Assembly (NCBI GenBank): GCA_021521415.1
Contig: JAIQDT010000295.1
Coordinates: 620,001-684,000 of the forward strand
Direction: 5' to 3'
From: Bidens hawaiensis
Taxonomy: Eukaryota; Streptophyta; Magnoliopsida; Asterales; Asteraceae
DNA: 64,000 nt
The position numbers were made by a program, and so were the translations under genes. Numbering within the stretch: the stretch's first letter is position 1; each line of letters opens with the position of its first letter. Positions 600 through 47,438 of the stretch are shown one piece after another. Below the pieces are notes generated by a model. That model made no database searches, was not told the origin of the DNA, and worked only from the letters and a program-made list of their open reading frames with translations.

Positions 600-855
600 T
601 CGTTATTTATGGATAACGAATTAAGTGTTTTTAATGAACTACACTCTAGTTCGTTCACCTAATTCGCTTCCGCACTCTGTAACGAAACACTTCTAGTTCG
701 TTATGCATATTTAATGAATCAAGACACGAATCAAGCCTAATTCGCTACTCTGCGCGTTCAAGTTGACTAACGAATTAGCTGATTCGTTATTTAAAATTTC
801 AAACGAATTAGATCTGATTCGTTGCCTCGAGAATCGTGTTTGTTAGTGTATAAAG
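600..855 (+). promoter_or_regulatory. Element B internal promoter: AATTCG(T/C)T motif array and TATA box
   Basis: About ten copies of an AATTCGTTA / TAACGAATT-like motif in both orientations lie between 600 and 840. A TATA box (TATAAAG) follows at 849-855. The next 125 bases contain no ATG and end at a GTAAGG donor-like site at 981. The same order is seen before the accessory ORF of elements A and D. Promoter activity is inferred from layout only. Confidence 0.55.
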
Positions 856-980
856 GACGGCGTGAAATAAATCGTCCTACACTATTCCCTCATCTTCCTT
901 ACACCTAAAGTTACTTTGTTCAAATTTTTCCTAATTTTTTGATCTTCGAAATTCGGACTTTTGAGTATATCATTGTGTTC

Positions 981-3610
981 GTAAGGTATAGATGATCATT
1001 TCTTTGTGATTTTCATCAAAAATGATACAGTTTTGATAGGTGATGTGTTGTAAAACACATTTACATTCCTTATCGTTTTATCACGATTTAATTGCTTTTT
1101 AGTTTAATTATTTTGTTTTTGCTTAATTTTACAAAGATGGATGTTTACTTGTAGGTTATGAGTTTTAATGAAGAAAAGTGGCAAGTTTGAAGACTCTGTG
1201 GGCTTATTTGAGCAACTTTGAAAACTACAACTCAAGGCCCGACCCAAGCCCACAAGTTAGAAGCCTTACATGCATAATATATTCATTAAACAAAAGAAAA
1301 AAGAACCCTAAACAGCCCTAAAATCCCGAAATTCAGCAGCCCCTATTCTGCCCGTATTTGTGATCGGTAGCAAGGGAGAAGAAAGAAGAAAAGCTTGTGG
1401 CGGCTAGGGTTTGGTGGCTGTGACGGCTGGAGAAGAAGAATAACACCCAGGAGGGTTTGTAATAGCAGCTAAGGGTATTATAAACTCATAATCTCAGCTT
1501 ATAATCATAAGTATCCATTCATAAACTTTATCTCTTGTTCAAGTACCCTAACTAGTTGAACTTGATCTTTTTGTTGGATTGTTTTGCAAGTAACTTAGAG
1601 ATTGACTTGTGTTTGATTGTTCTTGATCATTGAATGAGTTTTATTATGTTTATGTTGAGTTATATGATGTTTAATTTGATATATTGCTTCTGTCCAAACA
1701 TAATGTTAGGCTAAACTAGTTAGTTCTACCTAGGTTAGATGATTATTGTTTGGTTTTAGTAAGTAGTTTGGATTGTTGATGATCATGGCTTAAATTGTTA
1801 ATGTAAAGTTTGGTTTAATATTGAATTAGGTTGTGTTTAGTGGCTGTGAATTTGTTAATACACTTATAAACCTCTTGATTTTATTAGTTGAATGAGTTTT
1901 GATTGATTGTTGCTTGTTAGGACTCTTTACTTTGTGTTTAGGGTTTGTTTCCGGGTTGATCAACCATAGGGTTTAAGTGAGTGTAATAATTGAATATAAT
2001 CAGCGGGTAGACACCTTCTTAGAGACCGAGAGGTGATAGGAAGTAAACTCGTCTCATAGCTTTTACTTGTTAGGATTAGGATCGCGCGAGAGCGGGTTCG
2101 GTTCTTGTCGGGTTTGGGTTTGTGAGCGATTAGTTGACCTAATTTAAGTTAAATTGAATTTTTCCTCTATCCTTGGTTGCGTAGTATTCTTCTCCATTAG
2201 GGTAGTGTGTCGGTGAGACCGAGAAGAGAGTCGGCATTAGAGCACGTTAACAATTCGTCACCCGGTTTGTTCTTAAAATCAACTAAGTGTAGGTTAGGGC
2301 TTGTTAGTGTGACCGAGAGGTAATCTAGCTTCCTGAGTGAACCACAGTTGTGTCATTCCTTAGGAGCCGGTGTCGTGAGATTCTACAATCCAGTAGCTTA
2401 CTATACCTTCAATAGGATTCTTACCTAAGTAGACGTTTTTCCCATTGATAAATCGTATTTTCACAGTTTGGTCTAGTTTTCTTAATTTAAGTCTTTTAAG
2501 TTAATTTAAGTTAGGTTAAGTAGTTAATAATTAAAAATCTATTTAAAAAATATATTATTCTTAGGTGAGTCTTATTTAGGGTTAAGTATTAAGTACGTTT
2601 TCTCGTGTCCTTGTGCTCGATACTAGTACTTCCTTAGTGCTATACTATTAGTGATCGGTACACTTGCCGGTTTCGTGTGGTTTCTTTAGGATTTTCGTTT
2701 AATAAATTTAAAGCTTAGTTGTGAGAGCATCATTATACACACATCAATAGGGTTATTGTGTGATCTTGATATCAGGGTTTTTAAGGTTTTTGAAACCTTG
2801 TTTACTTGGATTAATACTCTGTTAATACACTTAAATTGTATATCATTTTGATCGTAATAGAGTTCCGACACCCTTGGTGATCCTTAATCAGATTTTGATT
2901 ATTGAATGCCGGGTTTATTAACTGATTGTTGTTTCGGGTGTTTATACACTGTACACATCCTTAATAATCTAACTTGTTTGTTGGTATAGAACCTCATAAA
3001 CGTTAATGTTTGCTTCGCAATGAGTTTCCGAGACTTGTTAAGTCATTTGTTAGGCTACTCATCGTAAATTATGGAGTAATTGATCTCCGATTTGAAACTT
3101 TGACTTTCTGTGTTCTTGTCAATTTTGACCTTGACCAAGACAATCAAAGATTAAGTCTAATTTTGACCATTCGATAACCTTAGCGAATTGAAACTCCTCC
3201 GTGTCCAATTCATTAAGGATTCACACGAATTAGATTAGCGACCCATTCACTTAACGAATCAAATGTGGATTCGTCAATTTGAAACGGACTAGAAGTTAGT
3301 TCGTTATTTTATAATAGTAGTTCGCTAATTCTACTTCGTTAATCTATTTACTTGATAGCGAATCAGTTGATTCAATAACGAATCAGACTGTGTTTTAACG
3401 AATGACATTTTAAAATTAATTATTTAATTAATGTAACTTAATTTTGTAATTTAATACAATAGTCCAAGGGTCTAACCGCGTCGATACATTGATTATACAC
3501 ACGGGATTAAACCATAATTATATATAGTTTACATCTAAATGCTTAAAGTATATATCACTTGTGTGATTTCTAAACTTCAATATTACTGATATTCAATATT
3601 ATTTATTCAG
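981..3610 (+). other. Predicted 5'-leader intron of the element B accessory gene
   Basis: A GTAAGG donor at 981 and a TTTATTCAG acceptor ending at 3610 bracket about 2.6 kb with no credible coding sequence. The accessory ORF begins 4 bases after the acceptor. Elements A and D have the same donor/acceptor plan with introns of about 366 and 221 bases, so this one is probably swollen by an insertion, roughly 1130-2940. That part is non-coding and contains repeated GACCGAGAGGT phrases (near 2025 and 2315) like the untranslated part of another retroelement. More of B's own AATTCGTT motifs appear at 3180-3415, just before the acceptor. Splicing is unproven. Confidence 0.45.
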
Positions 3611-3614
3611 GATT

Positions 3615-6600
3615 ATGGCTGGTAACATGGGACAAGATCCTCCTATTGATGCACCACCACAAGTTCAAGATGTTGATCAACCAGCTGAGGAAGCTCCTTT
3701 ACTTCCTTATGATCCTCGTCATAATGTGTGTGCTTTCGTTGATACAGACTTTGCTGATGAGGATGTCTTTGGTGATATGCTGGCATTTATACACCGATCT
3801 CGTATCCATTATGTTGTTACTGCTAATCCGGATATTAGATTCAGCATAGTTCGTCAATTCTAGAACACTGCTCAGTATGTAGAAGTGGAGGATCATATTG
3901 CTGTTGTGGTTAATAACAAACCAGTTGTCGTCTCAGCTGAAACAGTTCGAAGAGTGCTACAGTTTGATGATACCATTGATGATCCTAGCGAATAAGATAA
4001 AGAATTGATCAAGGGACTGTTCAGACGTTTGTTTTATGCTAGCAGTCTTACTGCGTCTATGTATAACAAGGCATACTTGTGTCCCCAATACAAGTATTTA
4101 CTACATGTTCTTATTCATTGCCTTGGTGGACTTAAGGCTGGGTTTGACGAATGTCGCGCTGCAAGATCTTCGATCATATGAAAGAAAATTGTATTCCTGG
4201 AAAACGTCGGGTGAAGTTCTTGATGTATCCGCGTTTCATTCAATTGTTTGTCAACGATGCTATCATGGATTTGGTGCTCGAGCCGAATGATGTAAACGAT
4301 AAATTTATTCTGGACAACATGAACGCAGATACCATGAGAAGAATGAAACTGTACCGTCAATCTTGTTCTCCCAGATTTAAGAGATTGATTGGTCATCATG
4401 CTAATCCTGATTATGTATGTCCTCCCGAGGATCGCTTTATCCATGATAACCCGGATTCCGAGTGTGAGGGAGGAGTAGGTGGGAACGATAATGATAATGA
4501 TCGTGATGATGGAGGTGATGGTGGTCATGGTGGAAATGGTGGTAATGATGTTGATGGTGGTAATAGTGATGCAGCTCTTAGAGAGCAACAGGCTGCAGTT
4601 GAAGCTGGGTTGGCTGCTACTATTGCCGCTCAACGAGAACGAAAACGTAAAGGGAAAGAGCTAGCAACTGGAAGTTCTTTGAAGCGGATAGTGTCGGCTG
4701 GGGCTGGCATCTTGTTTGGTGTTCAACCGTCTCGTCCTGTAACTCCTCAACGCCCGGCTGTGCCGCTTACTACTAGCACTCCGGCGCTTACTTTGACGAC
4801 GACGATGGTTCCTCATCACAGGCTTCGTATGATTCCACAAACGGCTTTAGCTGAGATACCAATGCCTTCTTCTACATCTTCTACTGTTCCTCCAACACCG
4901 ATCATGGGGCCTCCTCCACCTAGTGATATCTCATTTATGAGATTTACAAGGCCTCAGGGACCAATCCAACCAGTTTATCCATCGTTGTATGCTATGCCAC
5001 CGAATCGTCGGACAGATATGCTTTTGAATCTTCTTCATTTGTATGAAAATCAAATGTCTGCTGACCGTTTAAATAAAGAACGTCTGATGGAGAACCAGAA
5101 GAAGCTGATCAGCTATGTTTCTTTTTGTCAAAAGGAAACAAAATCCCTCCGTGAGATTGTTGAGTCTCAGGGGGTGAAACTTAAATAACAAGAGGAGCTT
5201 ATTCTGCAACTGACATGCAAAGATGATGCGCTGAAAAAGCTCAAGAATGATTATGAGGATCCAGATGAATCTGATGCTGGTGGTGAGACTAAACAAACTC
5301 AAGACCCAGCTTCTGGTGCGGGTACGAGTTCTGTTGATTATTCGAGCAAACAGATCATTGTTTATCATGACCATTAGGCTGCCAAACCGATTGAGATGAT
5401 TGAGGACGATACGGTTATCTTTGTGGATGAGAAGGGGATGGTAAGGAGTATGGTGAATAGGGAGGAGATTGAAGAAAGGCAGTTTGTTGATAGATCACTG
5501 ACACGAGAGCAGATTGCGATTTTGCTTGGTCTGAATGAAGACGATATGACCGTGTTTGAAGCTGAGCCCGATGTTGAGTTAGTTAATGATGATGAGATAC
5601 TAAATGATCCTACTTTTGATATGAGTACGGATTATATTTGTGCGAATGAGGAGGTTGAGATGGCGGATGTGACTGCTGAGGGTTATCCTGATCTGTTTCA
5701 ACACACTAATGTTGATCAGGGTGCTCCAGTGTTTAATGAAGAAACGGTTAAAGAAGCAGAAGACCATCTTGAGAAGAATTCCAAAGGCAAGAATGTCTTT
5801 GATATGAAATCTAATTCGCTTCTCGACCCATCTCTTGAGGAGATTGAGAGTTGGTTCAGACACAAGAAAGCAAGTAAGATCATCAAGGCATTTAGGATTG
5901 TTGATCAAGAACAGAAAGAAGAAGCTATTGCACGAGCCAAAGCCAACCAGAAGACCTCATTTAAGGCTTTGTCGAAAGTGCAAGGTAATATTGTTTCTTG
6001 GATGTTTGAATCTGATCTTAACGTATACATTGTTAAATGGGAGAAGGGTGTCCAGTACTACGAAAGGATGACTAATCTTCTCTCATTACCGAGATGGGAT
6101 GTGCGCACTTTGTTAAATCGTCCGTTTATTAATCGTGGTGAAGATTATCATGCAAAACGTTTTCACCAACACTTGGTTTTTGAGGTGAATCATGGTTTTA
6201 AGTATTTTAAACCACAAATTCCTATCTGCAAGCGTCTCAATGAGATTGACCCAAGAACGGGATGGAAGAAGTTGGTCCTTAAAATAAAGCCACCGAAGAC
6301 GATGAAGCGTGTACCGGTGAAGACAATGAACCAACACATGAATTTATCTTTCAACCGCTGGTACTACGACAATCGTACTGGCGAGGCCGTTATTGTTCTT
6401 GGTACAGGTTTAAAGACTGAGCTGATCAAGATCATCGATCCGATGTGGCTGGTTAACTTAACAGAGACCGACAATGACGTGCTACACAAGAACAAGATTT
6501 TGATTGAGCGCATTGAAGACTATGATCTGTCTATGCAATTCCAACGCGTTGTGCGTGTTTGTTATGAAAACGGAATTCATAGTTGCAGAGACTGGCAGTC

Positions 6601-6616
6601 CAAGCGTTTCAAGTAA
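3615..6616 (+). pseudogene. Element B accessory protein (ORF3-ORF4 fused), broken
   Basis: The reading frame starts at ATG 3615 and matches the element A protein: HNVCAFVD corresponds to HNIVAFLD, and YLCPQYKYLLHVLIHCLG to NLCPEFKYLAHVVMHCLG. A TAG at 3861-3863 stands where the family has Trp (QFWNTA). A second stop follows near 3992. A deletion with frame change near 4140-4180 removes about 25 residues. From 4151 one frame runs to 6616, broken only by TAA at 5186-5188 and TAG at 5375-5377. In order it carries the N-terminal domain end (YPRFIQLFV), an acidic Gly/Asp stretch, a basic cluster (RERKRKGKE), a Pro-rich part, a coiled coil, a second acidic stretch and the C-terminal domain with DPMWLVNL. 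Here ORF3 and ORF4 are one frame with no intron, unlike element A. It has no membrane segment or signal peptide, so it is not envelope-like. The function is unknown. Confidence 0.75.
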
Positions 6617-6650
6617 AGTAAAGACAAAGAGCTCAAGAAGAGGGGGTGTC

Positions 6651-7200
6651 TGTTAATGCATGGTTTTACGTCTTGAATCTTTGTATTTATCATTATTGTA
6701 TTTGTCGTTTTAGTTTATGTAATAAACATTTAAGTTATCTTGTAATTCGTTAATGTAATAGTCTAGTTCGCTAAGGATGTTTAGCGAACTGATCTATGTT
6801 ATTTCCCTCCTGATTCGTTAAGGATATTTAACTAATCAGGGGGTGATTCGTTAAGCTATTGTCTATTTAATGTATGTAACGAATTGGATGTTAGTTCATT
6901 AGGGGATGTTAACGAACTAACTCCATCGTCTATTTATAGTGACACTGTTCACACATTAATTAAGTGTTTGAGAGTTAATTGACGAACCTCTGTCCGAATC
7001 TCTCTCGATCTTCATCTTAATATTACACATACATACACATACTACTGATAATCTATACACATACATAACATACAATCAATTGTGATAACGAGCTAGATCC
7101 ACATTTAGAGTTAATCGTATATATCATATATGAGATCTGTTTCTTGTTAAGTATTGATTCTAAGGTTCAAACAAAGCTTGATCTCTCGATCCAAGCAAGC
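6651..7200 (+). repeat. Element B 3' LTR (right end uncertain)
   Basis: A purine-rich tract (AAGAAGAGGGGGTGTC) directly precedes TGTTAATGCATGG at 6651, the expected PPT-LTR join. Inside, AATTCGTTA / GTTCGCTAA motifs in both orientations fill 6740-6925 and stop just before a TATA box (TATTTATA, 6931-6938). The end is not visible. It may be cut by the neighbouring element D. Confidence 0.6.
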
Positions 7201-7239: not shown

Positions 7240-7916
7240 AAGTGTTTTCGGGCAGACCTTGTCTCCCGGGCACACTTTATATATTTCGGGCATACTTTGA
7301 TTCCAATGTTCCCTCAATATACTTGGTAATTCCAAAATTAACTTTCCGAGTACACTTTGTGCTAGGAATCTACTCCAAGCACACTTTTTATTTATTGAAA
7401 GTTTTTCGGGCATACTTTGCATCAAAGTATACTTAACTGAATAATTGTGAATAATTTTCGAGTAAGTTTTGCAATAAGTCAATTTATTCAGGTAAGGTAT
7501 GTGCTTAACTGTGTTATGTTATCCGAGTAAGGTTAGAAGTATGGTTAAAATATTTATTTAGGCATCTTAATTGATTCCTAGCAAGGTTGCCTACTTGATG
7601 TTATATACTTGATTATTCATCTTGTGATTCAGTTCTCAAGCTATCTTGTATTTCAAATAGGACATTCTTCATTTAATTAAATTTACTTTTTAACACTTCT
7701 AATAACCGAGTAAGCTTTGAGTAAGTGGAATATACCGGGCATGCTTTGCAATATCCCCACTTTAAAATTTCCGAGCAAGGTTTGTCAAATTTATTAACTT
7801 GGAGTTGGGTATTTTAAATGTGTAAAAAGTTAAATTGGATAACATTACCGTTTCATAGCTAATAACTCACAAAAAGACAAAATGCATTTAAAACCCACTT
7901 TCAAAAGGTATATAAG
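7240..7916 (+). promoter_or_regulatory. Element D internal promoter: TTTCGGGCATACTTTG-like array and TATA box
   Basis: Ten or more degenerate copies of a 14-16 base motif around TTYCGRGYANRCTTTG are scattered from 7243 to 7790, for example TTTCGGGCATACTTTG near 7288 and 7407. The array is followed by TATATAAG at 7909-7916 and a pyrimidine-rich leader without ATG. This is the same array-TATA-leader plan as in elements A and B, with an unrelated motif. Confidence 0.55.
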
Positions 7917-8056: not shown

Positions 8057-8277
8057 GTAAGCAATAATAATATGTTTTCCGATCACGATTAGATGATTTT
8101 GAGCTTTGATTATGTATTTTCGCTAACTCTCTGTTTTGTGTGTAGGTTTTAAATTTGTCGAAGAGCAGGTTGTTAATGAAATTTCTTTCTTTCTTATTCA
8201 TTTTTCCAACTTGAATTGCCTAAAGTAATGAGCTTTATGACTAATTTCATTTTGAATATGTTTAATTGTGTTTTCAG
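8057..8277 (+). other. Predicted leader intron of the element D accessory gene
   Basis: The donor CTCG|GTAAGC is at 8057 and the acceptor GTTTTCAG ends at 8277, giving 221 bases. The leader from the TATA box to the donor is about 140 bases with no ATG. The accessory reading frame begins immediately after the acceptor, although a clear start ATG has been lost. Predicted from sequence signals and from the parallel layouts in elements A and B. Confidence 0.5.
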
Positions 8278-11200
8278 ATATAACGGACGAAAATGCTCCT
8301 ACATATTTGTTTGAGCAAAAGCACAACATGTGCGATATTTTGCAAGTCACACTGAAGAATGAAGATGTTGCCACAATTATACAATGGTTGCAAAGATCAA
8401 ACATCCGTTTTTCACTAACGGAAAATCATGTAATCTACCGGAACCATTCATTGGATTTTTGGAACTCGCAACATTGATTGATCATGTGAATGGCCGACTA
8501 ATATAAGCCACTGTTGCTAGTCATGAAATACGAGTTGATAAGGCTGTGATAAGAAGGTGTCTATAATTGAATGATGATAATCCTAATCCGATCCATCTTA
8601 CAACTGCTCAACTATACAAGATCTTTGTCAAGTGTATGGGTTATAAAGGACACACAAAAGATGGGCAATTCCAAAAGGGGATGTTCCCTACTATTTAAAG
8701 ATTCCTGATACACCACATTATACAGGGTTTTGCACCAAGGAAAGGGTCTTGGACCCTCATGAGCAGAGATTTGGCAAACGCAACTGTTGCAGTGTCGTTT
8801 AACTATCCATTCAACTTTTCAAAAATGATATTTGATGGTTAAGTTAAGAATTTGGAAAAACCAATCAAGCATAAATTTTTGGCTTATCCGAGATTCTTTC
8901 AAATAATTTTCAATCAAGAGTTGGAGAACTTACCAACTACAATAATAACTCATATTCTTCAAAATCCATACATATTTAAAAGAATAGAGAATCTGGCTAC
9001 CACAAGTAGATTTGATCCAGAAGAGGTGTATGAGGATCTGCCCTGGTTAATGTTTGATGATATACTGATACCTTCTTTGAATGTATTGTTATCTGAAGAT
9101 GAAGAGGATGTTTAAGGATGTAACGATGAAGATGATGGAGGTGATGACAGTTCTGATGATGGTAATGATGACGATGGAGATAGAGATGAAGGAGGGGATG
9201 GAGGAGCCATAGTTGATGATGTACTTATTCAGGGAGAAAACCAACCAATCCCAACACCACCATCTACACCTTTAGACTCACCACCTCACTCACCACCACA
9301 TTCACCACCACCCACCCTAAACCAATCACCACCACCCACAACAATTGCCTTACCTACATATTCACCGCAATCCTCTCCACTGTTAAATGAACATATTACT
9401 CAATCACCACCCCAACCTGATATCCAACCACAATCTCAAACCCAAACCCAACCTATCCTTACCCATTCACCACCTCAAACCACAACCCAAACCCCACCAG
9501 AATCAACTACATCACACAAGTCATTACCAAACATTAACACACTACCCTCCACCAATGAAAATATTTTTGAATAAGGAAATCCAATCACCCAACCAGATAA
9601 CTCTGAACCTGAACCATTTCACATGTCACCACCGACTACCCCTCCCCACATTTCAGGCCTCTACAAAAGAAATTTTGAATTGATTATGGAAGTTGTGAAG
9701 TTGAGGAATGAGAATGCATGGTTGAGACTGGAAAATGATGAACTAAAAGCTCAGTTGGATGCTGCTAATGATAAAATTCAAACTTGGAGCAGGAGGTTAA
9801 GAAGATCTCTGCTGCCCCAAAACAGGGGGAGAATATACATGAACCAACTGATGTTTTTGATGTTGCTGGTATCGATGGTACTTTAAATGCTGAAATGATG
9901 GATGTAGGAGGAAGAACAACTGGTGTGGATGGTATGACTTGTTTGTTTAATGCATATGTAGATGATGAGGACAGTGAAGAAAGGAGCATAACTGATGATG
10001 ATTATGAGGCAGATTTGTCTGATAAAGAAGAGCAAAACTATGACGTTAATGATGAAGTTATGCATGTTATATGGAGAGATCATGATGATGAGGTGAGAGG
10101 AGAGGAGACAGAGGATGGAGTTGAAAATGAAACTGAAGTTCAAAATGAAGTGACAAATGTTGAAGAAAATGTGGCTAGCACTGATTTAACCACTAATGTC
10201 TCAACTAAAGCCTTAACTGATGAAATAAATGATGGTAATGCTGCTACTGAGGAGCCTACACCTGCTGAACTTGAACCTGGAAGCTCCAAGAGGGTAGAGC
10301 ATGATGCAGAAATGGAGGCATTGGACAAAGATATTGATGAGTTCCCATCTGAAACTGAAGAAGATTTACAGAAGAGAATGGAAAAAGGAAAGGCAAAGGT
10401 TTATGAAGAAGAGCCTGTTAAGGAAAATCTTGTGAAAGAAAGATTGATTGATGAATAGGAAGAAGCTTCTGCTGCTACCAGAAGAGAATTTGAAAACATG
10501 ATAAGAGAAACAAGGGATAGGGAAATTCTAGCCCAAACCTTGTCTCTTTTCATATTCTTCCATGGTTTCCACTTCCCCAACATCTAATACTTCATGACTT
10601 GAAAATACTGGATATACTGGAATGAAATTCTCATATTCAACTGTTTCAGTCACTTTATTCTTGTTATTTTCTTTGATTCTTTGCAGTATTTTCTTGCTTG
10701 GAGGTCTCACTGGATTATAGCTAACTTTTGACTTTTCACAAATGTCAAATGACACATGTTCTTTTCTAATTCTTTCATACACTTTCTTCATCTTTGGAGC
10801 TACTAGAGGGAGGTGTGGCAATTTTTCAAATGAATTTGGTTTTTTGTACCTCCTACCTTTTTCAGCAGCTTTAATTTCTTCTTCAGTGATTTGATCACTC
10901 ATATCACTTAAGTCATCGGCATTCAAATCCTCAGAATCAAGTCATCCTCAGAGACTTGTATTCCAATTGATTTGTCTTCTTTCACATCTTCCTTCATAAC
11001 ATATTCTCCCCCTTTATTCACCTCAACCTTCTTATACAGATTAACAAGCTCCTCTCTATCTTGAAACACTTCTCTGAACTACTGGAGATAACTATCCCTC
11101 TTCTCTTTGTAAACTTTGGGTAAGAAGTTCTTATTGAATGGAGGCATGATGGAGAAATGGAGGCATTGGACAAAGATATTGATGAGTTCCCATCTGAAAC

Positions 11201-36026: not shown

Positions 36027-36128
36027 TCAAACTGAAATAAACAACTGTACAAAATTTTAAAACACATTATTTTTGGTTGAGAAGGATCTATAATAAGAAA
36101 TCATACAGACGTATATGACTGTCTACTG

Positions 36129-36179
<51 letters not shown>

Positions 36180-36651: not shown

Positions 36652-36656
<5 letters not shown>

Positions 36657-37597: not shown

Positions 37598-40500
37598 TTA
37601 AATGATATCTTCAGGAACATCATCTGATATACGTTTAACGCCGTTGATCTCTAGTAAATATAAAAACCGTGGTTTATCAAATGCTTTAGTGAAGAGATCA
37701 GCGCGTTGTTCCTGAGTGGGGATTTTTATCACATCGATTAACTTCTTTTCGTAGCAATCACGAAGGAAGTGATATCGAATTTCGATGTGCTTCGTTTTGC
37801 TAAAATGGACCGGATTTTTGGTAATTGAAATTGCAGCAGAATTATCAATATATATGGGAGTAGTAGAACATTCAATACCGTAGTCACGCATTTGTTGCTG
37901 AATCCAAATAACTTGAGAACAGCAACTGGCAGCCGCAATATATTCCGCCTCAGCTGTTGAAGTGGAGACTGACGTCTGCTTTTTGCATTGCCACGTTACT
38001 AAACGACTTCCAAAGAACTGACATCCTGCTGTTGTTGATTTGTAATCGAGTTTACAACCACCATAGTCCGAATCACTGTACGCATGTAGATCAAAGTTAT
38101 CATCATGAGGATACCAAAGACCCCAATCTGGAGTACCCTTCAGATAACGCAAAATTCTTTTGACTGCAATCAGATGGGAGACCTTCGGCTTTGACTGGTA
38201 ACGTGCACAGAGACACGTAGCAAACATTATGTCTGGCCGAGAAGCAGTCAGGTACATTAGAGATCCGATGATCCCTCTATAGTGAGTTGGATTGATCAAT
38301 TCACCCTTCTCGTCAGGATTAATCCCGTGATTAACCTCTAAAGGAGTTCCCTGTGAAGAAGAACTCAACATCTCAAACCGTTTCAAGATGTCATTGACGT
38401 ATTTTGTCTGGTGAATGAAGATACCGGAATCTTTTTGATCAACTTGAAGTCCTAAGAAGAACTTCATCTCACCCATGGAGCTCATTTCAAATTTTTCTTT
38501 CATCACTTGTTCGAACTCCTTACAAAGTGTTTTATTCGTGGACCCGAAGATGATGTCGTCCACGTACACTTGTACCATAATTAGATCTCCTTCTTTTTCT
38601 TTTGAGAATAGTGTGCAGTCAATGGTTCCCCTTCTAAACCCGTTGTTCAGAAGGTGTTTGGATAGTTCTTTATACCAAGCTCTCGGGGCTTGGTGAAGAC
38701 CGTACAAAGCCTTGTTGAGCAGATAGGCTTTGTCCTTGTGATATGGGTCTTCAAAACCTGGAGGTTGTGCCACATATACGGTCTCTTCGATGTGACCGTA
38801 CAAAAAGGCACTCTTGACGTCCATTTGATATACTTTGAATTTCTTGAAAGATGCATACGCCAAGAACATCCGGATTGCCTCCAAACGAGCAACCGGAGCA
38901 TATACCTCATTGTAGTCTAGGCCTTCGATTTGCCTAAACCCTTGGACCACCAGGCGGGCTTTGTTGCGAACAATCACTCCACGATCGTCACGTTTACATT
39001 TTAGTACCCACTTAGTGCCAATTTTCTTCTGTCCTTTGGGGAGATCCACCAGCTTCCACACACCAAGTCTTTTAAACTGCAATAATTCCTCTTGCATGGC
39101 TGAGACCCAGTTGGAATCTTTCAGCGCATCGGTGGTGCTGTGTGGTTCTTCTTGTGCTAAGAAGCATTCATGGGCATTAAGAGCAACTGATCCTGACTCC
39201 ATCATTTCTGTGTAGAGACCAAAATTCAGCTGTCGCCGAGTTTTGACACCCTGTTGAAAGTCCCCTATAATGTTGTCTTGTGGATGATCACGTTCAGTCC
39301 TAACAACCGGATTGTCAGAAACGACAACATTTTGTTCCAAGTTAGTTAAGTTCGGCTCAGGAACTGGAGCGGATTGTGGTGCCTCTGAAGTAGACGTTAG
39401 AGGCTGATCTGCATTCGGCACTTCTTGATTTGACGATGAAGGTTGTGACGTAACCTGAGTTGGTGCCGATTGTACATCATCTGCTGGAGATTCATCTTCA
39501 GATTCAGATTCGGAAGATTCTTGAACTTGATCGCTAGACTCTGTGGAGGAAGATGATGACGGACCAGGATGAGTTGAAGATTGCAAAGATTCATCAGGAG
39601 GTGCATTTTGCGCCTCATACATCATTTGAATAGCAATCTCATACAGATTGAATGACTTGAACAGTTTGTCATAATCAAACAACCAGTCTTCTCCTGTCCC
39701 CTTGGCTGGTTCTGTGTAGCGTTGAACATCGACATGGTACCATTCTTCAACTAATTTTGTTGTTCTGTTGAAGACCCTTTTGAGAGGTATGCTGTAACCC
39801 AGAAAATAGCCGTTGATGATCTTCTCCTCGAACTTATTATCGACTTGCCTTTTAAGTAACGTGCAAAGAGCCCCGAATGGTTCCAGGTGCTCTAAGTTAG
39901 GCCTTCGTCGTTGAAGAAGCTCGAAACTTGTCTTGCCGTGGCGCTTGACGATGCCTACCCGATTTAATGTGAAACAGGCGTTGGCAATTGCCTCACTCCA
40001 AAACGTAACAGGTAACACTGAGTCGGCTAACATTGTTCTTGCTGTCTCGATTAACGTACGATTTTTCCTTTCAGCAACCCCGTTCATTTGTGGAACATAT
40101 GGGGCACTGAACTCCTGAACGATCCCCTTTTCTTTGCAGAAATTTTCAACATTCGCATTTTTAAATTCTGTACCGTTATCTGACCGCATTCTTCGAACCT
40201 TCAGATTGTATTGAGACTCAATAGTTGTAACCAGCAGTTGTATACACCCAAACGTTTCTGATTTTACTTTCAAGAAAAACACCCAAGAGAATCTAGAATA
40301 TTCATCAGTAACCACTAGACAGTATGAGTGCCCAGAGATACTTTTGACGCTTATTGGGCCAAAAAGATCCATATGAAGGAGTTCCAACGGAATATCAATT
40401 GAGTGGAAACTCTTAGACTTGTGGGACCTTTTTATCTGCTTTCCGGCTTTGCACTTCACACATGAATCAGGGAGACGAAAACTTCTCAGATTAACTCCCT

Positions 40501-41017
40501 CAACTAGTCTGCGGTGCACAAGCTTGTTCATGTTCCTGACATTTATGTGTCCCATCCGTCTATGCCATAAGACAGTATCACGTTCGGATGCCTTGGACAC
40601 GAAACATGTCGCCGTTGGAGACGTTGACCCTGCCTTAGCCATATCCAGAATGTAAAGATCACTCTGGCGTGCAGCTGACATTAAAACCTTGTCTTCAGGA
40701 AAGTTGAAATCCTTAGGCAAGATGTGGCAATCTCGGTCGTCAAACATAACTTTGAAACCTTTGTCGCAGATTTGACTTATCGACAACAGGTTGTTCTCCA
40801 ACTCTTTGATGAAATTTACTTTCTCAAACGAAATTCGCCCATTAGACACCATTCCTTGGGCCGTGATATAACCTCCTTGATTTCCTGCAAAGGAAACTGC
40901 ACCTCCTTTTATTTGTCTGACACTTGAAAGGAGATTCATGTTTCCAGTCATGTGCCTGGAAGCTCCTGAGTCTATGATCCACATGTTGAATCTTGGATCA
41001 TATAGAGCAACCTGCAC
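37598..41017 (-). CDS. pol: Copia Pol polyprotein, outer copy
   Basis: The 1139-residue frame has all domains of the inner copy in the same order: protease DSGAS, GAG-pre-integrase, integrase DD35E, YVDD reverse transcriptase and RNase H. The only residue difference I noticed is Ala for Thr in the RNase H stretch read as IDNSAAISITK. The first codon is GTG, directly after the polypyrimidine-TGTGCAG sequence, and the frame is again the continuation of gag beyond one TAA. Coding capacity is intact, but the gag upstream has frameshifts. Confidence 0.9.
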   Translation of the reverse strand: MQVALYDPRFNMWIIDSGASRHMTGNMNLLSSVRQIKGGAVSFAGNQGGYITAQGMVSNGRISFEKVNFIKELENNLLSISQICDKGFKVMFDDRDCHILPKDFNFPEDKVLMSAARQSDLYILDMAKAGSTSPTATCFVSKASERDTVLWHRRMGHINVRNMNKLVHRRLVEGVNLRSFRLPDSCVKCKAGKQIKRSHKSKSFHSIDIPLELLHMDLFGPISVKSISGHSYCLVVTDEYSRFSWVFFLKVKSETFGCIQLLVTTIESQYNLKVRRMRSDNGTEFKNANVENFCKEKGIVQEFSAPYVPQMNGVAERKNRTLIETARTMLADSVLPVTFWSEAIANACFTLNRVGIVKRHGKTSFELLQRRRPNLEHLEPFGALCTLLKRQVDNKFEEKIINGYFLGYSIPLKRVFNRTTKLVEEWYHVDVQRYTEPAKGTGEDWLFDYDKLFKSFNLYEIAIQMMYEAQNAPPDESLQSSTHPGPSSSSSTESSDQVQESSESESEDESPADDVQSAPTQVTSQPSSSNQEVPNADQPLTSTSEAPQSAPVPEPNLTNLEQNVVVSDNPVVRTERDHPQDNIIGDFQQGVKTRRQLNFGLYTEMMESGSVALNAHECFLAQEEPHSTTDALKDSNWVSAMQEELLQFKRLGVWKLVDLPKGQKKIGTKWVLKCKRDDRGVIVRNKARLVVQGFRQIEGLDYNEVYAPVARLEAIRMFLAYASFKKFKVYQMDVKSAFLYGHIEETVYVAQPPGFEDPYHKDKAYLLNKALYGLHQAPRAWYKELSKHLLNNGFRRGTIDCTLFSKEKEGDLIMVQVYVDDIIFGSTNKTLCKEFEQVMKEKFEMSSMGEMKFFLGLQVDQKDSGIFIHQTKYVNDILKRFEMLSSSSQGTPLEVNHGINPDEKGELINPTHYRGIIGSLMYLTASRPDIMFATCLCARYQSKPKVSHLIAVKRILRYLKGTPDWGLWYPHDDNFDLHAYSDSDYGGCKLDYKSTTAGCQFFGSRLVTWQCKKQTSVSTSTAEAEYIAAASCCSQVIWIQQQMRDYGIECSTTPIYIDNSAAISITKNPVHFSKTKHIEIRYHFLRDCYEKKLIDVIKIPTQEQRADLFTKAFDKPRFLYLLEINGVKRISDDVPEDII

Positions 41018-41032
41018 ACAAAAACAAAAGGT

Positions 41033-44000
41033 TTAAATATCATTGGAAACCCAAGCCCTTAAGGTCTTGGGTTTTCCATCTTCATCACGAATGAACAATT
41101 CAATCCATTTACCCTCATTAACACTGTTTTCAGATTTGACGTTGTTATCAACAGTGTTAGTTTTCTTAGGTTTCCAAAAGTCAGTCTTCTTCTCAGCATG
41201 TTTGAGATAGCTGGTTGAAGACTGAGTTTCACTTGTCGAAGTGGAAATACTTGGATCTGAGGGGTTTGGGGATTGGTGTGGTGAGGTTGGCTGAGGTTTC
41301 CGAGGAGAAACCGACCTCGGTGTGTGAAACCGTTCTTGACCTTGAATGTCAATGGTCGGTCGCCTCCTAGGAGGTGACTTGACATACCTCGGATCCGGAG
41401 TCGATATGTACTGCTTAGGATCCGTGTACTTATAGCAAAATCTTGCTATATGCCCTACCTCTCCACACGAAAAACAGTAGTTTCTCCCCCTTTGACTTGG
41501 TGGAGAGAAATAACTCTGGTTTTGTCTGTTATCATAGTACCCCCCTGGATTTGACATTTTGGGGTGGAGTTTGTCTAGGAGGGTGTTTTGGGAAATTATG
41601 TTTTTCATTAACGTTACCCTCCTTTACAAACTGGGTACTATGTTCCACATAGACTTTCTCAGATTTAGGATTAAACTTTTTCTTCTGAGAACTTCTTGTT
41701 GTTGTTGCCTTTGACTTAGATGGTGGTGGGCCCGATTTAGTTGTGGAACCTAAGTCTGTGGCATCAACATTTTGTTTGGACTCAGGAGCTGGGTCAATGA
41801 CTTCTTTACCCTTAGACTTAGAAATTTGGTTTGTGTCCTCGGGTATATAATCATTTGATTCATCATCCGGCACAGCTCCTGGTGTGCTTGAAAATTGATT
41901 CAGGATCGGGGGTGGGACATTGTTATATCCCACGCCTCTTTCCTTTTTGCCTCGGAACTCGGGAATGATGTGTTCTAATAAATAAGATGAATTTGAGTAA
42001 CTTTTTAATTTGAAATTCAATGATTCAAAATCAGCTTTCAAGTTTTCCAATTCTTTTTTCAAAACATTATTCTTATTTATGTGAAAATTGATAGAGTCTT
42101 GTTGATTCAGAACACATATTCAAGTTCCTTGTTCTGACGCTTAAGGCTATCAATCTTTTCTTTAAAAACAGACTCTTTCTGCTTCCAAGCCTTATTCTGT
42201 GCAAGCGCGTCAGTCAGTTCCATTAAAGATCTTGAGGCTGCTTGTTTGTAAGCCTCGAGATCTTCAATTCTCTCTTTTAGAGATTGAATTTCTTGTTCAT
42301 ACAATTCACATTTTAAACATTTAACATTTTCTGGTTTGGGAGTTGATGGGTTAGAACTTACCTTGGCATTTGATGTCTCTGCCATGAATGCAAAGCAAAG
42401 ATTCCCAGCTTTTTCCAGAAACGATGCAGAAGTTGCTTTAGACTCTACTTCGTTGACTTCTTCAACTTTAGCAGCCTCTGCGGGAATTGTCGAACATGGA
42501 GATGTTTGAGGAACATTTGACTCTTTTTCGTGATCCTCCTTAATCTCCAAAGATACCACTTCAACCTCAGGTTCTCCTTCATGGACTTCAGCAGCTGGTT
42601 CATCGACAGTATATTCTTCATTGGTCGAGGAAACAACAGACTCTGTTTCAGAGTTTTCATCTACTACTGTGACATCAGCCATGTTGATGCTCAAGTTCCA
42701 TGTCTCGCCTTCATCCCCTTGAACTGCAAGAGCAGTTTCGTTGTTGATGTCGACGTTGTTTGCTGCGGTTTGATTTTGAGGGACCAGTTGTCTCTCAAGG
42801 TTGACAGTTGCAGCTGCTGCAGCAGGAGTGGATGATGATGAAGTGGTTCGGAAGGGATATTGGTGACCTTCCCTTCTTGGCTTCGAGCACTCCTTGGCAA
42901 AGTGACCAAGTTCGCCACAGTTGTAGCATTTTACTTTGTTTTTATCAAAGCCGAACTTGGATTTGTTGTTTATTGAGAGGGCCTGACCTGTTTTCTTCGT
43001 CCACTTTCTGGCCCTTCGGAACGCACTGCCAAGAGCCCACATAATGTCTATGCGTTCCATATCATCTTCGTCAAGCTGTTCATAGTCATCGCTGTCCAGA
43101 TGACTATTTCCTAGCTTACCCGCCACCATTAAACTGTAGGACTCAATTATCGTGCCTAGAGTTGCCATGTGTTCTTTGGCAACCTCCACTGTTACTGTTC
43201 CCAAGCCTTCAGTATTCAACGTTGCTTTCTCCGTTGACTTGGGTCCGGAGTTAGTACTTGAGTTTCCAGAAGTTGATAGTGGGACGGAAGATCTCGTTTC
43301 AGTCCCCTTTGATTGATTTGACGTTGAGGAGACAAAAGCAGTCTTCATCGGAGCATGATCAGTTGAATCTGACAAAGGAGGTTTTGACATGTAAAGTGAT
43401 TTGTCAGAAGTTGATCTCGGTTTTCTGGAAGAGGCTCTTAGTTCAGCCTCTTCGTGTCTGATTTCTTTAATAAAATCAGACAGGAGAATCGTCTCCAGCT
43501 GATGACTTCTTCTCATTACTGTCAGGAAGGTGCTCCAGCTAGGTGGAAGTCCTTGTGCAAGACATCTAACTTTCTCAGTCCCTGTAGTTTTGACGTTATA
43601 GGACTTGAGTTCTGACATTAGATGGTAAAATCTCGACAGTAACGACTCAATATCTTCTCCCGACTCTGGACTAAACAGATCAAATTCACGCTTGAGCTCC
43701 CGTGCGTGAATTTCTCTAAGGGAATCAGATCCTTCACATCGGTCAACCAGTGCGTTCCAAAGAGTTGACGCTGTAGTAAACTGGTTAAACTGATGAAAAA
43801 GATCAGTGGAGAGTGCTTGTGATAGTAAGGAGAAGGCTTTCTTCTCAGCATCGAAGGCTATCTTTTGTTCTTCAGATAGCCTAAAGTAGCTCAACGACTC
43901 ACCATCATCATTCGTTGGATGCACCCAACTTGTCTGGACAGCTTCCCAAAGTCCAGGATTTACACCTGTTATATGAATTTGAAATCTTGTCTTCCAGGTT

Positions 44001-44110
44001 GTAAATTCGTTTAAAGTCATTAGCTTTGGTGGCTTGTTATAGCTTCCCGATTCAGAATCGCTTTCGAGAATCGATTGGATCCTCTTGTTGGTACTCGAAC
44101 TTGAAGCCAT
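41033..44110 (-). pseudogene. gag: Copia gag, outer copy, two one-base indels
   Basis: From ATG at 44110 the frame matches the inner gag for about 660 residues, with the first zinc knuckle (CYNCGELGHFAKEC) intact. An A is missing near 42118 (GAAATATG in the inner copy, GAATATG here) and the frame stops shortly after. An extra G in a run near 41542 (five versus six) gives a second shift before the second zinc knuckle. Both changes lie in short homopolymers, so consensus errors are possible. As given, the copy cannot make full Gag. Confidence 0.85.
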
Positions 44111-44139
44111 TTTTGATCCTTTGGTTAACTTTGAACTGT

Positions 44140-44540
44140 TGATCGAATGAGTCTGGTTCGATCGGACGAGTGCCTTATTCGATCGAATATGTTCTGATTC
44201 GATCGAATGTCTCTCTGGAAAACCGAACTGATCTTCTGAAAGTTATTCGATCGAATGTGTAACTGGTTCGATCGAATGGGTTAACAGATTCGATCGATTG
44301 AGTGTATGGTTTGATCGAACGGGTTCTGACAGTCGAATAAGACAGTGATCGAATGGACGGATCGAATGTGTGACTTATTCGATCAACTGGAGACTGGTTC
44401 GATCGAATGAACGAATCTGGTTCGATCGAATGAACTTGGAGTATTTCTAGGCGGGAAAAACTGATTCGGTCCAAGTTCAAACTGGTTCGATCGAATAGGA
44501 GGGCTATTCGATCGAATGAGTTCCAAAAATAGACTGGTTC
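44140..44540 (-). repeat. Leader array of ATTCGATCGAAT motifs, outer copy
   Basis: Mirror of 19760-20160: about fifteen motif copies between the primer-binding site and the gag ATG. The remainder up to 44938 is leader with no gene. Confidence 0.75.
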
Positions 44541-44938
44541 GATCGGAAAATCTGGAAATTCCAAAATTAGGAGATTTTGACGGATTTTCGAATTTTGAAC
44601 CACAAACACGAATCTTAGAAGATCAAGGAGCAAAGTAAGATCAAAATGAGACTTTTAACACAAAAACAGATGAACACCAACCAAAAAACGGATCAAACAC
44701 ACCAAAAACACGAAGAACACGAAGAACGCGAAGAACGTTCTTGACGAAACTCGAACTTTTAACACACTTTTCCAAGATCAAAACACCAAAATATGACAAT
44801 TTTAACAGTTTTTGACAAGAACACGACGAACACCAAGATCAAAAACACCAAAAATTCGGAATTTTCCAGCAAAAATAACGATTTTCGCGAGAAAAACACG
44901 AATTTCACCACGAATCTAACGTGAATCAAGAACCAAAG

Positions 44939-45402
44939 GCTCTGATACCACTTTGTCGGACCGGTGCGGGACACGGTTTCCCAACGATTCACGGGGCAAC
45001 GTGTTAGAGTGCGGAATCCTCTAACACGGCGATTCGGTGGTGATCAACAACGCGCGGTAACGATTCCTAAGACGGTTTGACACCTAGGGACGGAGGAAAG
45101 GACCGACACGTGAAGAACGGGCAGAGAGTATTTCAGCAGAGTGGTGGTTCGTGACTGTGTGTAGAATGTGTGCTCTCTTGTGAAATTTCCTAAGTTTCGT
45201 TTATATATCGAAAACTGGTTCGATCGAATGAGTCTCTCATTCGATCGAACGAGACCTGGTTCGATCGAATCAGTCACTGATTCGATCGAATCAGTTTCTT
45301 TTGACATTTTCAGTCCGTTAACTTAGTTTCACGATCGTTATCTTCATATCGAACCATCCTGATAGAACTGGGGACATACACATGACATTTCATGTCCTAA
45401 CA
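44939..45402 (-). repeat. Element A outer 5' LTR and primer-binding site
   Basis: The LTR is 44954-45402 (449 bp) and appears identical to 17200-17648. The complement of TGGTATCAGAGC lies at 44939-44950, three bases from the LTR, the standard initiator-Met-tRNA primer site. The TATA box is at 45200-45207 (TTTATATA on the plus strand), with the four motifs upstream in the element sense. Confidence 0.9.
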
Positions 45403-45407
45403 ACATT

Positions 45408-46008: not shown

Positions 46009-46019
46009 TGATGTGGTGG

Positions 46020-46949
46020 TGGTGGACGTAGAGGAGATGGATGATAGCTTGGCTGGTGATGATGATGTATTGCCAAGTGATGTGATAGAAAAGATTGGTG
46101 GAGATTATTGTGATTGATACAGAGATTGAAGAGGGAGAGATAGTAGAAGAGAATGTGGAGCATGACATTCCAGATGTTGAGAAAGCCGATATGGGTAAAG
46201 AGATGGCAAGTGATGAGTCTGAATGGGAAGAGCAGCCTAGGTGGAAGGAAGGCTATGCTCAGTGGTTCGTCAAAACGAAGAAACCGGCGGTCCCTACAAT
46301 GTTTAAGAAGAGTTACAACATTAAAGGCTATGCTGAAGCGAAGAAAGGGATTATATGTTGGATCTATGATGAGCAGTTGAGGCTCTTCGTGATTAAAAGG
46401 TATGACGGTGTTCAGTATTTTAAAAGAATGTTAAGATCGTTGAATACACTGCCGGAATGTGAAGTGAAAGACTTAGCCAGATTGGGGTTAATCAATCGAA
46501 GTGATGATAATATGGCTAGAGTCATTGGGAAAATTGTATGGAAAGAGAGTATAAAAGAGAAGAAGTTTGAGCTGTTGAAGCCACAGAAGGGAAAACTTGT
46601 TGAAGACAAGGATAGAGGTTTGAGAGCTGATGGAAAGCCTTGGATGGTCATGAAGTATAAACCGATCTGGTGTTTGAAAGAAGTACCTATGAAGCTTATG
46701 CCCAAGGATGTGCTTAAAGACCTAAAGTGGTGGTTTGTAGATTGTGAGACAGCTGAGGCAGTGATGGAAGACGAGGATGAACAAGAGGTACTAAGAGTTT
46801 ACGATCCGATGCATTTGGTAAACTTATCGCAAGCTGATCTGCAGGTGCTCAATGAGAAGAAAATCTTTTATATTCCTGCTTGGAAAGACGAAGCGCGGAA
46901 ATATCAAAGAGTTGTATCTGTTTGTGTTCGAGAAGGAGTGCATGAGTGA
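46020..46949 (+). pseudogene. Element C accessory protein, ORF4 domain
   Basis: After an acidic start in a different frame (GGDDVVVVDVEEMDDSLAG), a frame from 46095 to 46949 gives EEGEIVEENVEH, which matches EEGEISHNFTEEELEH of element A, and then the C-terminal domain: LRLFVIKRYDGVQYFKRM, MKYKPIWCLKEVPMKLM, DPMHLVNLSQADL and a final RVVSVCVREGVHE. The domain itself is uninterrupted. The N-terminal domain, coiled coil and internal promoter of the accessory gene are deleted. This third, diverged copy shows which residues are conserved across elements A, B and C. Confidence 0.75.
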
Positions 46950-47020
46950 AGATACAAGGTTGAAGATTACAAGACACGTGTTTGAAGCTAAAGAGATGAA
47001 GCTACTGCCAAGGGGGAGTC

Positions 47021-47438
47021 TGTTGGTGCATGATGTCAGTAGTTCAGTGTCTAGTGTCTGTAATCGCGTTTGTAATGTTTTATGTTTTGTATAAGCGAAG
47101 TTGCTAACAAGTTCGCTGATATGGGCGAACTTGTTAGACAAGCGAAGTTAGTGACAACTTCGCCTAAACATGCCAGGCGAAGTTGTCGTGATTATATAAG
47201 CCATCTGTTACGGCTTATTCATTAATTCATTCAGTTTTACAGTTTTCGTGTATTCGAGTTAGAGAGAGTCTGTAATCAAGTGATCTTCGTATCACGTGTT
47301 TAAGGTTGGTATACAACGTGTTTGATTATATTATCGTGTGTTAATCGTATTGTCTTCTATACTCGTAACGTCTTACGTAGGGATTCCGCACCTGCGTAGT
47401 ACGCGATATCTCGTTGTAGATCCGGCTGGGAACCTACA
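47021..47438 (+). repeat. Element C right LTR
   Basis: A polypurine tract (CCAAGGGGGAGTC, 47008-47020) precedes TGTTGGTGCATG at 47021. GCGAAGTT / AACTTCGCC-type motifs in both orientations lie at 47094-47186. They are followed directly by TATATAAG at 47193-47200. The LTR end is placed at CTACA, 47438. Confidence 0.7.

Follow-up and report, generated by a model that had tools for sequence, protein, structure and literature searches.

Short-motif arrays in SIRE-type retrotransposons of Bidens hawaiensis and an accessory protein that may read them

The role of the "envelope-like" gene of Sireviruses has been in question since it was named (1998), and that of the motif arrays called RM boxes since 2010. 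If the accessory protein made from this gene reads RM-type arrays, both questions would close together. The window studied here is DNA from Bidens hawaiensis (64,000 nt; contig JAIQDT010000295.1, 620,001-684,000 of the forward strand) in which arrays and accessory genes occur in several elements, here called A to D. All coordinates below are positions in this window. Our main reading, to which we give a probability of about 0.5, is that the accessory ORF3-ORF4 protein is a regulator that reads family-specific arrays at the LTR and at the internal promoter, and we favour such an element-encoded binder over a host factor.

Judged by their sequence, A, B, and C belong to the SIRE (Sirevirus) lineage of Ty1/copia. 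In A, pol has integrase before reverse transcriptase (rve, RVT_2) and gag is of copia type, which is the copia order; the B pol, lying just upstream in L012, matches that of A at 54%, and the C pol pieces match it at 49 and 59%. The polypurine octamer AGGGGGAG begins 10 bp 5′ of the 3′ LTR in A (32746-32753, LTR from 32756) and lies at 47011-47018 before C LTR 2 (from 47021), with one-base variants at equal distance in B (6641-6648) and before C LTR 1 (16092-16099). An extra ORF downstream of pol, found in 74% of SIRE elements (PMC6317226), is present as ORF3/ORF4 in A and B and as the C-terminal domain in C, and D carries an accessory gene related to these. Element A is laid out as follows.

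18993-19064, plus strand: 5′ LTR array, four TTCGATCGAA palindromes at spacings of 21, 20, and 21
19076-19083, plus strand: LTR TATA box TATATAAA, 21 bp after the start of the last motif
19749-20139, plus strand: leader array 5′ of the gag ATG; 12 sites, none with more than one mismatch
20186-23263, plus strand: gag ORF (Retrotran_gag_2, zinc knuckle)
23279-26698, plus strand: pol ORF (rve, RVT_2)
28737-28940, plus strand: internal-promoter array; of its 8 sites, 5 are exact and the rest have one mismatch
28913-28920, plus strand: internal TATA box TATAAATA, 25 bp after the start of the last exact motif
29162-29333, plus strand: second array, in the probable 5′ UTR intron of ORF3, 6 sites in the matrix
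29419-30996, plus strand: ORF3, 525 aa, with PF20167, basic cluster RPAKRQKKKVTRKYR, Pro-rich and coiled-coil-like stretches
30989-31160, plus strand: candidate 172-bp intron, placed by eye and by the open joint frame
31139-32407, plus strand: ORF4 open frame, 422 aa, the C-terminal domain common to A, B, and C
32868-32939, plus strand: 3′ LTR array, within an LTR that starts at 32756 and is cut near 32948
32945-45402, minus strand: second A copy, inverted relative to the first, carrying an LTR (about 44954-45402) and arrays of its own

A single one-mismatch site at 28931 lies beyond the internal TATA box. The probable 5′ UTR intron of ORF3 has a donor GTAAG at 29049 and an acceptor TTACAG at 29407-29412, both found by eye, and removal of the candidate intron at 30989-31160 would give a single 938-aa protein from ORF3 plus ORF4. 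Since the window holds two A copies in opposite orientations, raw A counts are doubled. The other three elements are represented by these features.

598-824, plus strand: B internal-promoter array of TTCGYTA-like half-sites, 5 exact RTTCGYTA; TATAAA at 849
3169-3403, plus strand: B third array, probably intronic, 5′ of the B ORF3 start (3615)
3615-6616, plus strand: B accessory gene, ORF3 broken, ORF4 open (5396-6616)
6745-6917, plus strand: B 3′ LTR array; LTR from 6651, TATTTATA at 6931
7249-7784, plus strand: D array, CGRGYAWRCTTTG-like, 11 sites with at most two mismatches (4 exact); TATATAAG at 7909
8277-9112, plus strand: D accessory gene, frames broken; its N-terminal domain matches A ORF3 at 29% (8498-8932)
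16156-16257, plus strand: C-type LTR 1 array, AACTTCGCC/GGCGAAGTT; LTR from 16102, TATA at about 16281
46095-46949, plus strand: C-terminal domain of the C accessory gene, a 29% match to A ORF4
47094-47184, plus strand: C-type LTR 2 array; LTR from 47021, TATATAA at 47193

The two C-type LTRs look like different families with a common motif type, because they share no match of at least 60 bp at E 1e-5. In A, B, and C, some 130-460 bp separate the stop of ORF4 from the beginning of the 3′ LTR array.

The matrix of motif against element is strictly diagonal. With ten array regions and four motifs, which we wrote from these same arrays with a mismatch limit for each motif, all 30 off-diagonal cells are zero; own-motif counts in A are 4 (LTR), 12 (leader), 8 (internal promoter), and 6 (intron), and elsewhere they are 7, 5, and 7 in B, 7 and 6 in C, and 11 in D. 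Markov-1 resampling (300 per region) gave at most 3 sites. The arrays that the earlier note had named at LTR and internal sites are indeed there, beyond chance. Three arrays were absent from that note, namely the A leader array, the array in the probable 5′ intron of A, and the B array at 3169-3403. Sites occur in the LTR arrays alone in C and in the internal array alone in D. Across the arrays of A, B, and C the shared core is an inverted TTCG...CGAA pair.

Arrays of this kind could be neutral tandem repeats made by slippage or gene conversion, and Tandem Repeats Finder does list those of A and C as imperfect repeats, mostly of 21-26 bp. However, the B arrays are not among the reported repeats, and their half-sites are irregularly spaced and point either way. 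One motif also recurs at four separate places in A (its LTR, gag leader, internal promoter, and probable 5′ intron) and at three in B, with different flanks. The motif columns are also far better conserved than the flanks. Between A and its sister family, identity at sites exact in A is 97.5% in the LTR, 97.5% in the leader, and 96.0% in the internal promoter plus intron, versus 83.2, 73.8, and 84.1% outside the masked sites, in a comparison that skips gapped columns (31 in motif, 181 off motif). Likewise, B half-sites are 91.3% identical across six relatives versus 58.7% between and beside them with B2 as the reference, and 94.9-97.3% versus 76.2-79.5% whichever of the other six serves as the reference. 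A neutral origin is therefore very improbable in our judgment.

The earlier note had placed each array immediately before a TATA box. Measured from the start of the last motif to the start of the TATA box, with the TATA pattern picked by eye for each element, the distance is 21 bp (LTR) and 25 bp (internal) in A, 21 bp (LTR) and 66 bp (internal) in B, where one-mismatch half-sites lie nearer the internal TATA, and 32 and 16 bp in the C LTRs. The distance is thus 16-66 bp for A, B, and C, and in D it is 137 bp. With its loose sites, long TATA gap, and broken frames, and with recognition of the N-terminal protein domain only, D is the weakest case. Because the arrays are conserved relative to their flanks, lie near TATA boxes, and stand at both the LTR and the internal promoter, they look functional.

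They might function as RNA, small-RNA, or methylation targets (hairpins, siRNA hot spots, CpG clusters) instead of protein sites. The palindromes lie in presumably transcribed stretches, including the leader, the probable introns, and a gypsy LTR downstream of its TATA box, the motifs contain CpG, and CpG islands around Sirevirus arrays have been published. A short distance to TATA in both the LTR and the internal promoter argues against this reading, as do the conservation of the short B half-sites with more variable columns between them and a preferred spacing of 20-21 and 31 bp. Exact A sites are 20-23 bp from their neighbour in 25 of the 48 intervals measured and 31 bp in 5, with related copies entered separately; sites with up to one mismatch also show intervals of 13 bp (6/87) and 18 bp (8/87). 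We consider RNA or methylation targets unlikely, and protein-binding sites the better account.

The layout itself is known. In 2010 Bousios et al. (PMC2829016) described Sirevirus arrays both within the LTR and 5′ of the envelope-like gene, and the suggestion that such a system would be new for LTR retrotransposons does not survive for the array layout. The published elements share with ours many element-specific palindromes in the LTR shortly before TATA, more copies 5′ of the envelope-like gene, the lineage, and the position of the polypurine tract; an LTR array before TATA together with an array 5′ of the envelope-like gene is found in both A and B. In contrast to the published CGG-CCG core (Tnd-1 excepted), which is absent from the A, B, and C arrays, the cores here are TTCG...CGAA, and further arrays occupy the gag leader and probable 5′ introns of the accessory gene. 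In the parts of that paper on which we draw, the envelope-like product is not put forward as the reader of the RM boxes. What is new here is the proposal that the accessory protein may read the array motif, along with the better conservation of motif sites than of flanks, the success of accessory-protein type in predicting the LTR motif of five B relatives, and the protein features set out below.

The accessory protein had been described as combining a basic nuclear-signal-like cluster with acidic and Pro-rich stretches and a coiled coil in A, B, and D. In A ORF3 we find the basic cluster (net +9 within 15 residues) along with Pro-rich and coiled-coil-like stretches, whereas in D only the N-terminal domain is recognised; C keeps the C-terminal domain, as had been stated. 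By hydropathy alone, the A, B, and C pieces contain no membrane-like stretch and no transmembrane segment of the kind that a retroviral envelope has, the highest 19-residue Kyte-Doolittle means being 1.09 in A ORF3, 0.97 in A ORF4, 1.06 and 1.17 in the B pieces, and 0.61 in C. For one pair, dN/dS is 0.086 in ORF3 and 0.101 in ORF4 (pol 0.105, gag 0.139), and thus the accessory protein is under purifying selection. ORF4 of A is open in 99/99 scored copies, which are the best of 37,947 candidates and, being near-identical, too alike to inform on divergence.

A ORF3 matches PF20167 (Transposase_32, putative plant transposon protein) with 46.6 bits against a curated cut-off of 45. PF20167 is a name without a tested function. 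Searched with hmmscan at E up to 10, six proteins or pieces gave no DNA-binding family above the Pfam cut-off, in a search whose HMMER filters can lose weak matches; TMF_DNA_bd in a coiled-coil-like stretch (8.6 bits, cut-off 35) we read as chance. A large protein collection yielded no ORF3 homologue at E<=0.001 among the best 7,994 word-sharing candidates, PDB had no sequence match for ORF3 or ORF4, and NCBIfam searches gave nothing of use. Two triosephosphate isomerase matches of an A/B/C ORF4 profile in PDB (E 0.46 and 0.83) are likewise read as chance, and two AlphaFold models have mean pLDDT of 38.5 and 42.5, a confidence too low for use. A genome search with PF20167, in which the best 150 of 3,279 candidates were scored and five matches read, was dropped as a route to further SIRE families: four loci (L014-L017) match neither A ORF3 nor the B piece, the fifth (L013) has a 30% match, and all five contain zero A, B, or C motifs.

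Does motif type follow protein type? The palindrome accompanies the A-type accessory protein in A and its sister, TTCGYTA accompanies the B-type protein in B, B2, and five B relatives, the C LTR 2 motif accompanies the C-type C-terminal domain, and D has a motif of its own. The five B relatives were taken from the ORF4 match list before their DNA was read, and protein type predicted the LTR motif in 5/5: all have TTCGYTA LTR arrays and none has an A or C motif, although they form one clade with homologous LTRs and are not five independent tests. The two types thus go together in the sampled elements with both array and accessory gene, which amount to only three or four independent types.

In the 3.47 Gb genome as a whole, exact ATTCGATCGAAT has 28,201 copies versus 94 for the reversed control, which is also a palindrome. 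Outside the SIRE elements, TTCGATCGAA arrays lie downstream of TATA in the LTRs of two Ty3/gypsy elements (L005 and L009) and of a gag-only element (L006). The latter LTR also has two C-type half-sites, and the 10 kb retrieved for L005 and for L009 contain no match to A ORF3/ORF4. The claim that each motif is private to its element therefore holds within the window and not in the genome, where the A palindrome is arrayed in unrelated gypsy-type LTRs; for the published arrays, PMC2829016 gives the motif as Sirevirus-specific and absent from the classic copia elements compared there.

Because the A motif occurs in these unrelated LTRs, one host transcription factor, or several related ones, may instead bind the arrays, with copia and gypsy families having built them independently and the accessory protein doing something else. 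Envelope-less Sireviruses retain LTR arrays (PMC2829016 Table 3), and Bousios et al. discuss host nuclear factors. Yet related elements lying in a single window each use a motif that the others lack, motif type tracks accessory-protein type in the sampled elements, and in published Sireviruses 77/79 linker copies are located 5′ of the envelope-like gene, although an internal promoter bound by a host factor would look alike. We regard a host factor as possible and as the strongest rival.

For an element-encoded binder speak the diagonal matrix, the conservation, the TATA position, the link of motif to protein, the purifying selection, and the lack of a membrane-like stretch in the A, B, and C pieces; against it speak the A palindrome downstream of TATA in gypsy LTRs without an A ORF3/ORF4 match in the retrieved 10 kb, and the lack of a DNA-binding family above the Pfam cut-off in the six proteins or pieces. 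Under such a binder, the LTR and the accessory-gene internal promoter of A and B would both be controlled by one regulator, whose family-specific, TTCG-containing site would be set in arrays, as inverted pairs in A, B, and C. The protein would be expressed from a putative internal start site, with ORF3 probably spliced to ORF4, would reach the nucleus through its basic cluster, and would dimerise through the predicted coiled coil and bind the arrays side by side. Once bound, it may raise or protect transcription from both promoters (activation or anti-silencing) in a feed-forward loop; gypsy-type LTRs with the A motif would exploit the A regulator. Given the LTR arrays of envelope-less Sireviruses, an array does not need its partner protein in cis. 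If this is true, families in a genome full of elements could be kept apart by private promoter codes, parasites could take over such a code by acquiring its site, and each accessory protein should prefer its own array.

More tentatively, at somewhat less than even odds, the Sirevirus "envelope-like" gene may encode a sequence-specific nuclear regulator and not an envelope, its specificity having radiated round a TTCG core along with matching arrays in the LTR, the leader, the internal promoter, and the intron of the gene itself, as a form of self-recognition parasitised by gypsy and gag-only elements. TnpA of the DNA transposon En/Spm is an element-encoded protein that binds arrays of a 12-bp motif near its own promoter. 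The self-recognition system would be convergent with foamy-virus Tas and VANDAL VANC. Tas resembles the proposed protein as an accessory regulator acting on an LTR and an internal promoter, but it belongs to vertebrate retroviruses, its binding is experimental in the bovine case (e.g., PMC4929722), and we claim no homology. VANC (Hosaka et al. 2017, PMC5735166) shares more: a fast-evolving accessory protein encoded by a transposable element, short motifs in tandem repeats 5′ of genes and in accessory-gene introns, and different motifs in related elements. However, VANDALs are DNA transposons. Their VANC proteins contain DUF1985 and DUF287, two domains that hmmscan did not list here (E up to 10, six proteins or pieces), although its filters can lose weak matches. 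VANC binding and methylation loss are demonstrated, whereas binding by the proteins described here is a prediction.

A minor observation concerns the phasing of the A sites. In a helical-phase fit that counts related copies repeatedly, and from which we therefore take no more than the simple preference in spacing, the best period is 9.85 for exact sites and 9.8 without the two-turn class, and for a looser set it lies at the 9.5 edge of the scan; the best period is thus below 10.5 bp.

Several copia elements lie within the window (G000:C295:620001-684000) of this 3.47-Gb genome, and A, B and C are classed by pol and polypurine tract as SIRE/Sirevirus-type. The earlier note had placed before the TATA boxes of A, B, C and D an array of one short motif, different in each element. 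We scored the four motifs in ten array regions against a Markov-1 resampling background. Own-motif counts per region were 4, 12, 8 and 6 for A, 7, 5 and 7 for B, 7 and 6 for C and 11 for D, and all 30 foreign-motif cells were zero (resampling maximum 3); because the motifs were written from these same arrays, the zeros are the informative part of the matrix. In seven control stretches of the window (A gag-pol, A ORF3-4, A gap, B gap, B ORF3-4, D ORF and 50-64 kb) motif A was absent even at one mismatch, and the B, C and D motifs occurred 0-3 times each. With TATA patterns assigned by eye, the TATA comes 16-66 bp after the start of the last motif in the A, B and C LTRs and in the A and B internal promoters, but 137 bp after it in D, so that the placement is upheld for the first three elements and is looser in the fourth. 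Genome-wide, exact ATTCGATCGAAT occurs 28,201 times versus 94 for its reversed control. The array observation thus stands with corrections, among them further arrays that had been overlooked: in the A leader before gag, upstream of the B ORF3 start and in the probable 5′ intron of A ORF3.

The sites of A, B and C are all inverted TTCG/CGAA pairs, arranged as TTCG-2-CGAA in A, TTCGYTA-8-TARCGAA in B and AACTTCGCC-3-GGCGAAGTT in C, and these differing distances would fit a dimeric reader that has altered its flanking contacts and its dimer spacing. A 2016 paper reportedly described palindromes in the LTRs of maize Sireviruses. Excerpts of PMC2829016 (Bousios et al. 2010) describe palindromic LTR boxes in 13 Sireviruses, in most of which a conserved TATA follows shortly, and linker boxes in the nine that have an envelope-like gene, 77 of 79 of them upstream of that gene; nuclear factors and an internal promoter are discussed there (lineage background, also in excerpt, in PMC3599292). 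The array layout is therefore an already published Sirevirus trait, and what is new is the proposal of the accessory protein, the product of that envelope-like gene (ORF3-ORF4), as its cognate reader. In the open-licence papers covered, by title and beginning of abstract, we found no proposal of the envelope-like product as the box reader. In an excerpt of PMC6317226 (Neumann et al. 2019), 74% of SIRE elements have an extra ORF, a very heterogeneous one whose function is speculative. According to the excerpted PMC5735166, the tandem repeats that lie upstream of VANA21 in VANDAL21 contain VANC21 motifs, as do introns of VANC21 and VANB21, an arrangement close to that of A and B; passages of PMC4929722 describe Tas, the regulator of bovine foamy virus, as binding LTR and internal promoter alike, and in part of PMC12844716 VANC is discussed beside LTR retrotransposons and a sunflower Tekay extra ORF is cited for its likeness to dsRNA-binding proteins.

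The proposed pairing of motif type with accessory-protein type is borne out as co-segregation, but in few independent types. C LTR2 lies directly 3′ of a C-type C-terminal domain. B2, a divergent B relative (L006) whose accessory gene we read as B-like, has nine TTCGYTA half-sites in its 3′ LTR array, 19 bp before the TATA. From a search with B ORF4 in which 102 of 42,621 candidates were scored, five B relatives were picked across 89-76% identity before their DNA was seen, and the 401 bp downstream of each were read. All five carry 7-9 TTCGYTA half-sites, and none has the A palindrome or C half-sites there; since they form one clade, they confirm a family rule and are not five independent events. 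In four (L019-L022) the distance from the last upstream half-site to a TATA is 21-36 bp, with one half-site past the TATA in L020 and L022; L018 has its nearest TATA-like word 69 bp past the last half-site. Half-sites defined in B2 are 91.3% identical across six relatives versus 58.7% between or beside them (94.9-97.3 versus 76.2-79.5% with the other six as reference in turn).

The array layout of A recurs in a sister family, L007/L008 (LTR 85%, ORF3 79% and ORF4 88% identical). In that family, sites that match the motif exactly in A keep 97.5 (LTR), 97.5 (leader) and 96.0% identity (internal promoter plus intron), versus 83.2, 73.8 and 84.1% in the columns beyond the masked sites. With sites defined from both sequences, a mask that leans towards conservation over columns that are not independent, the pooled figures are 355/380 versus 1,283/1,611. 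ORF3 has diverged between the two families and the motif is unchanged. For this one pair, dN/dS is 0.086 in ORF3, 0.101 in ORF4 (one stop in the sister), 0.105 in pol and 0.139 in gag, and dS spans fivefold (pol 0.21, ORF4 0.50, gag 0.53, ORF3 1.05), which suggests modular recombination between lineages. All 99 scored A copies (99-100% identical, with the window's among them) keep ORF4 open; as the best 99 of 37,947 candidates, they are biased to young copies.

A ORF3 (525 aa) matches PF20167 at 46.6 bits (cut-off 45) and has a Pro-rich stretch, a basic cluster of net charge +9 in 15 residues, and a putative coiled coil read from weak matches to several such families. Removal of a 172-bp GT-AG interval, a candidate intron, would fuse ORF3 and ORF4 in frame into 938 aa. 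No 19-residue stretch of the accessory proteins has a mean hydropathy above 1.2, so an envelope protein is unlikely, and no recognised DNA-binding domain was found in the accessory protein. D has only the related N-terminal domain. Genome-wide, PF20167 gave 3,279 candidates, 150 of them scored; five places (L013-L017; 1.1 kb) lack the A, B and C motifs. On the minus strand of L014 a copia-like LTR carries a further motif type, TATACG/CGTATA, the last copy of the cluster lying 32 bp before TATAAATA, which is followed by a TGGTATCAGAGC primer site.

That each motif is private to its element is not borne out, as the A palindrome is also arrayed in Ty3/gypsy LTRs (L005, L009) and in the LTR of a gag-only element in L006. 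In all these LTRs a TATA-like word stands about 430 bp upstream of the first motif. The gag-only element (3656-9636 of L006; LTRs of about 2 kb, five zinc-knuckle matches, flanking repeat GGCCG) sits inside B2 ORF3, its LTR has two C-type half-sites as well, and the ORF3 matches in L006 belong to the interrupted copia. No A ORF3/ORF4 match was found in 10 kb of L005 or of L009 (E 1e-5). Either a host factor reads the sites or gypsy-type elements borrow A's regulator, and the data fit both equally. These shared arrays, with the lack of a recognised DNA-binding domain, weaken the cognate reading, which draws support from co-segregation across a small number of independent types, from site conservation and from protein features; on sequence evidence we give about even odds that the accessory protein would be the cognate reader, and place the host factor behind it. 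The L005 and L009 LTR arrays of TTCGATCGAA have partly a 20-bp period, and near L005 the array recurs along the contig at steps of about 8.3 kb.

Element A has copia gag and pol, two accessory frames, an LTR of ~450 bp and a polypurine tract, AGGGGGAG, starting 10 bp before the 3′ LTR. Its surroundings are as follows.

18889-32948, plus strand: A copy
45402-32945, minus strand: A copy, 99.7% identical to the first over 12.5 kb
17200-17649 and about 44954-45402, minus strand: A LTRs, outer limits of the two-copy block
17195-17199 and 45403-45407: ACATT on both sides of the pair, read from sequence
27646-27691, 28113-28158 and 28269-28314: three 46-A runs in the A linker (pol to internal promoter)
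12735-15848 and 59739-62822: direct repeat of 3.1 kb, about 97% identical

The pair is flanked by two parts of one pol gene, 49 and 59% identical to A pol. Because two minus-strand LTRs bound the block (17195-45407), a nested insertion into another copia element's pol seems likelier than an inverted duplication; the two-copy block may also be an assembly error. One internal junction, about 32945, coincides with the end of a palindrome array, and the 3′ end of the plus-strand 5′ LTR (19314-19344) is unlike both minus-strand LTR copies, which have another terminal sequence beside the primer site. In our reading, the gag-pol of B is in L012, immediately outside the window.
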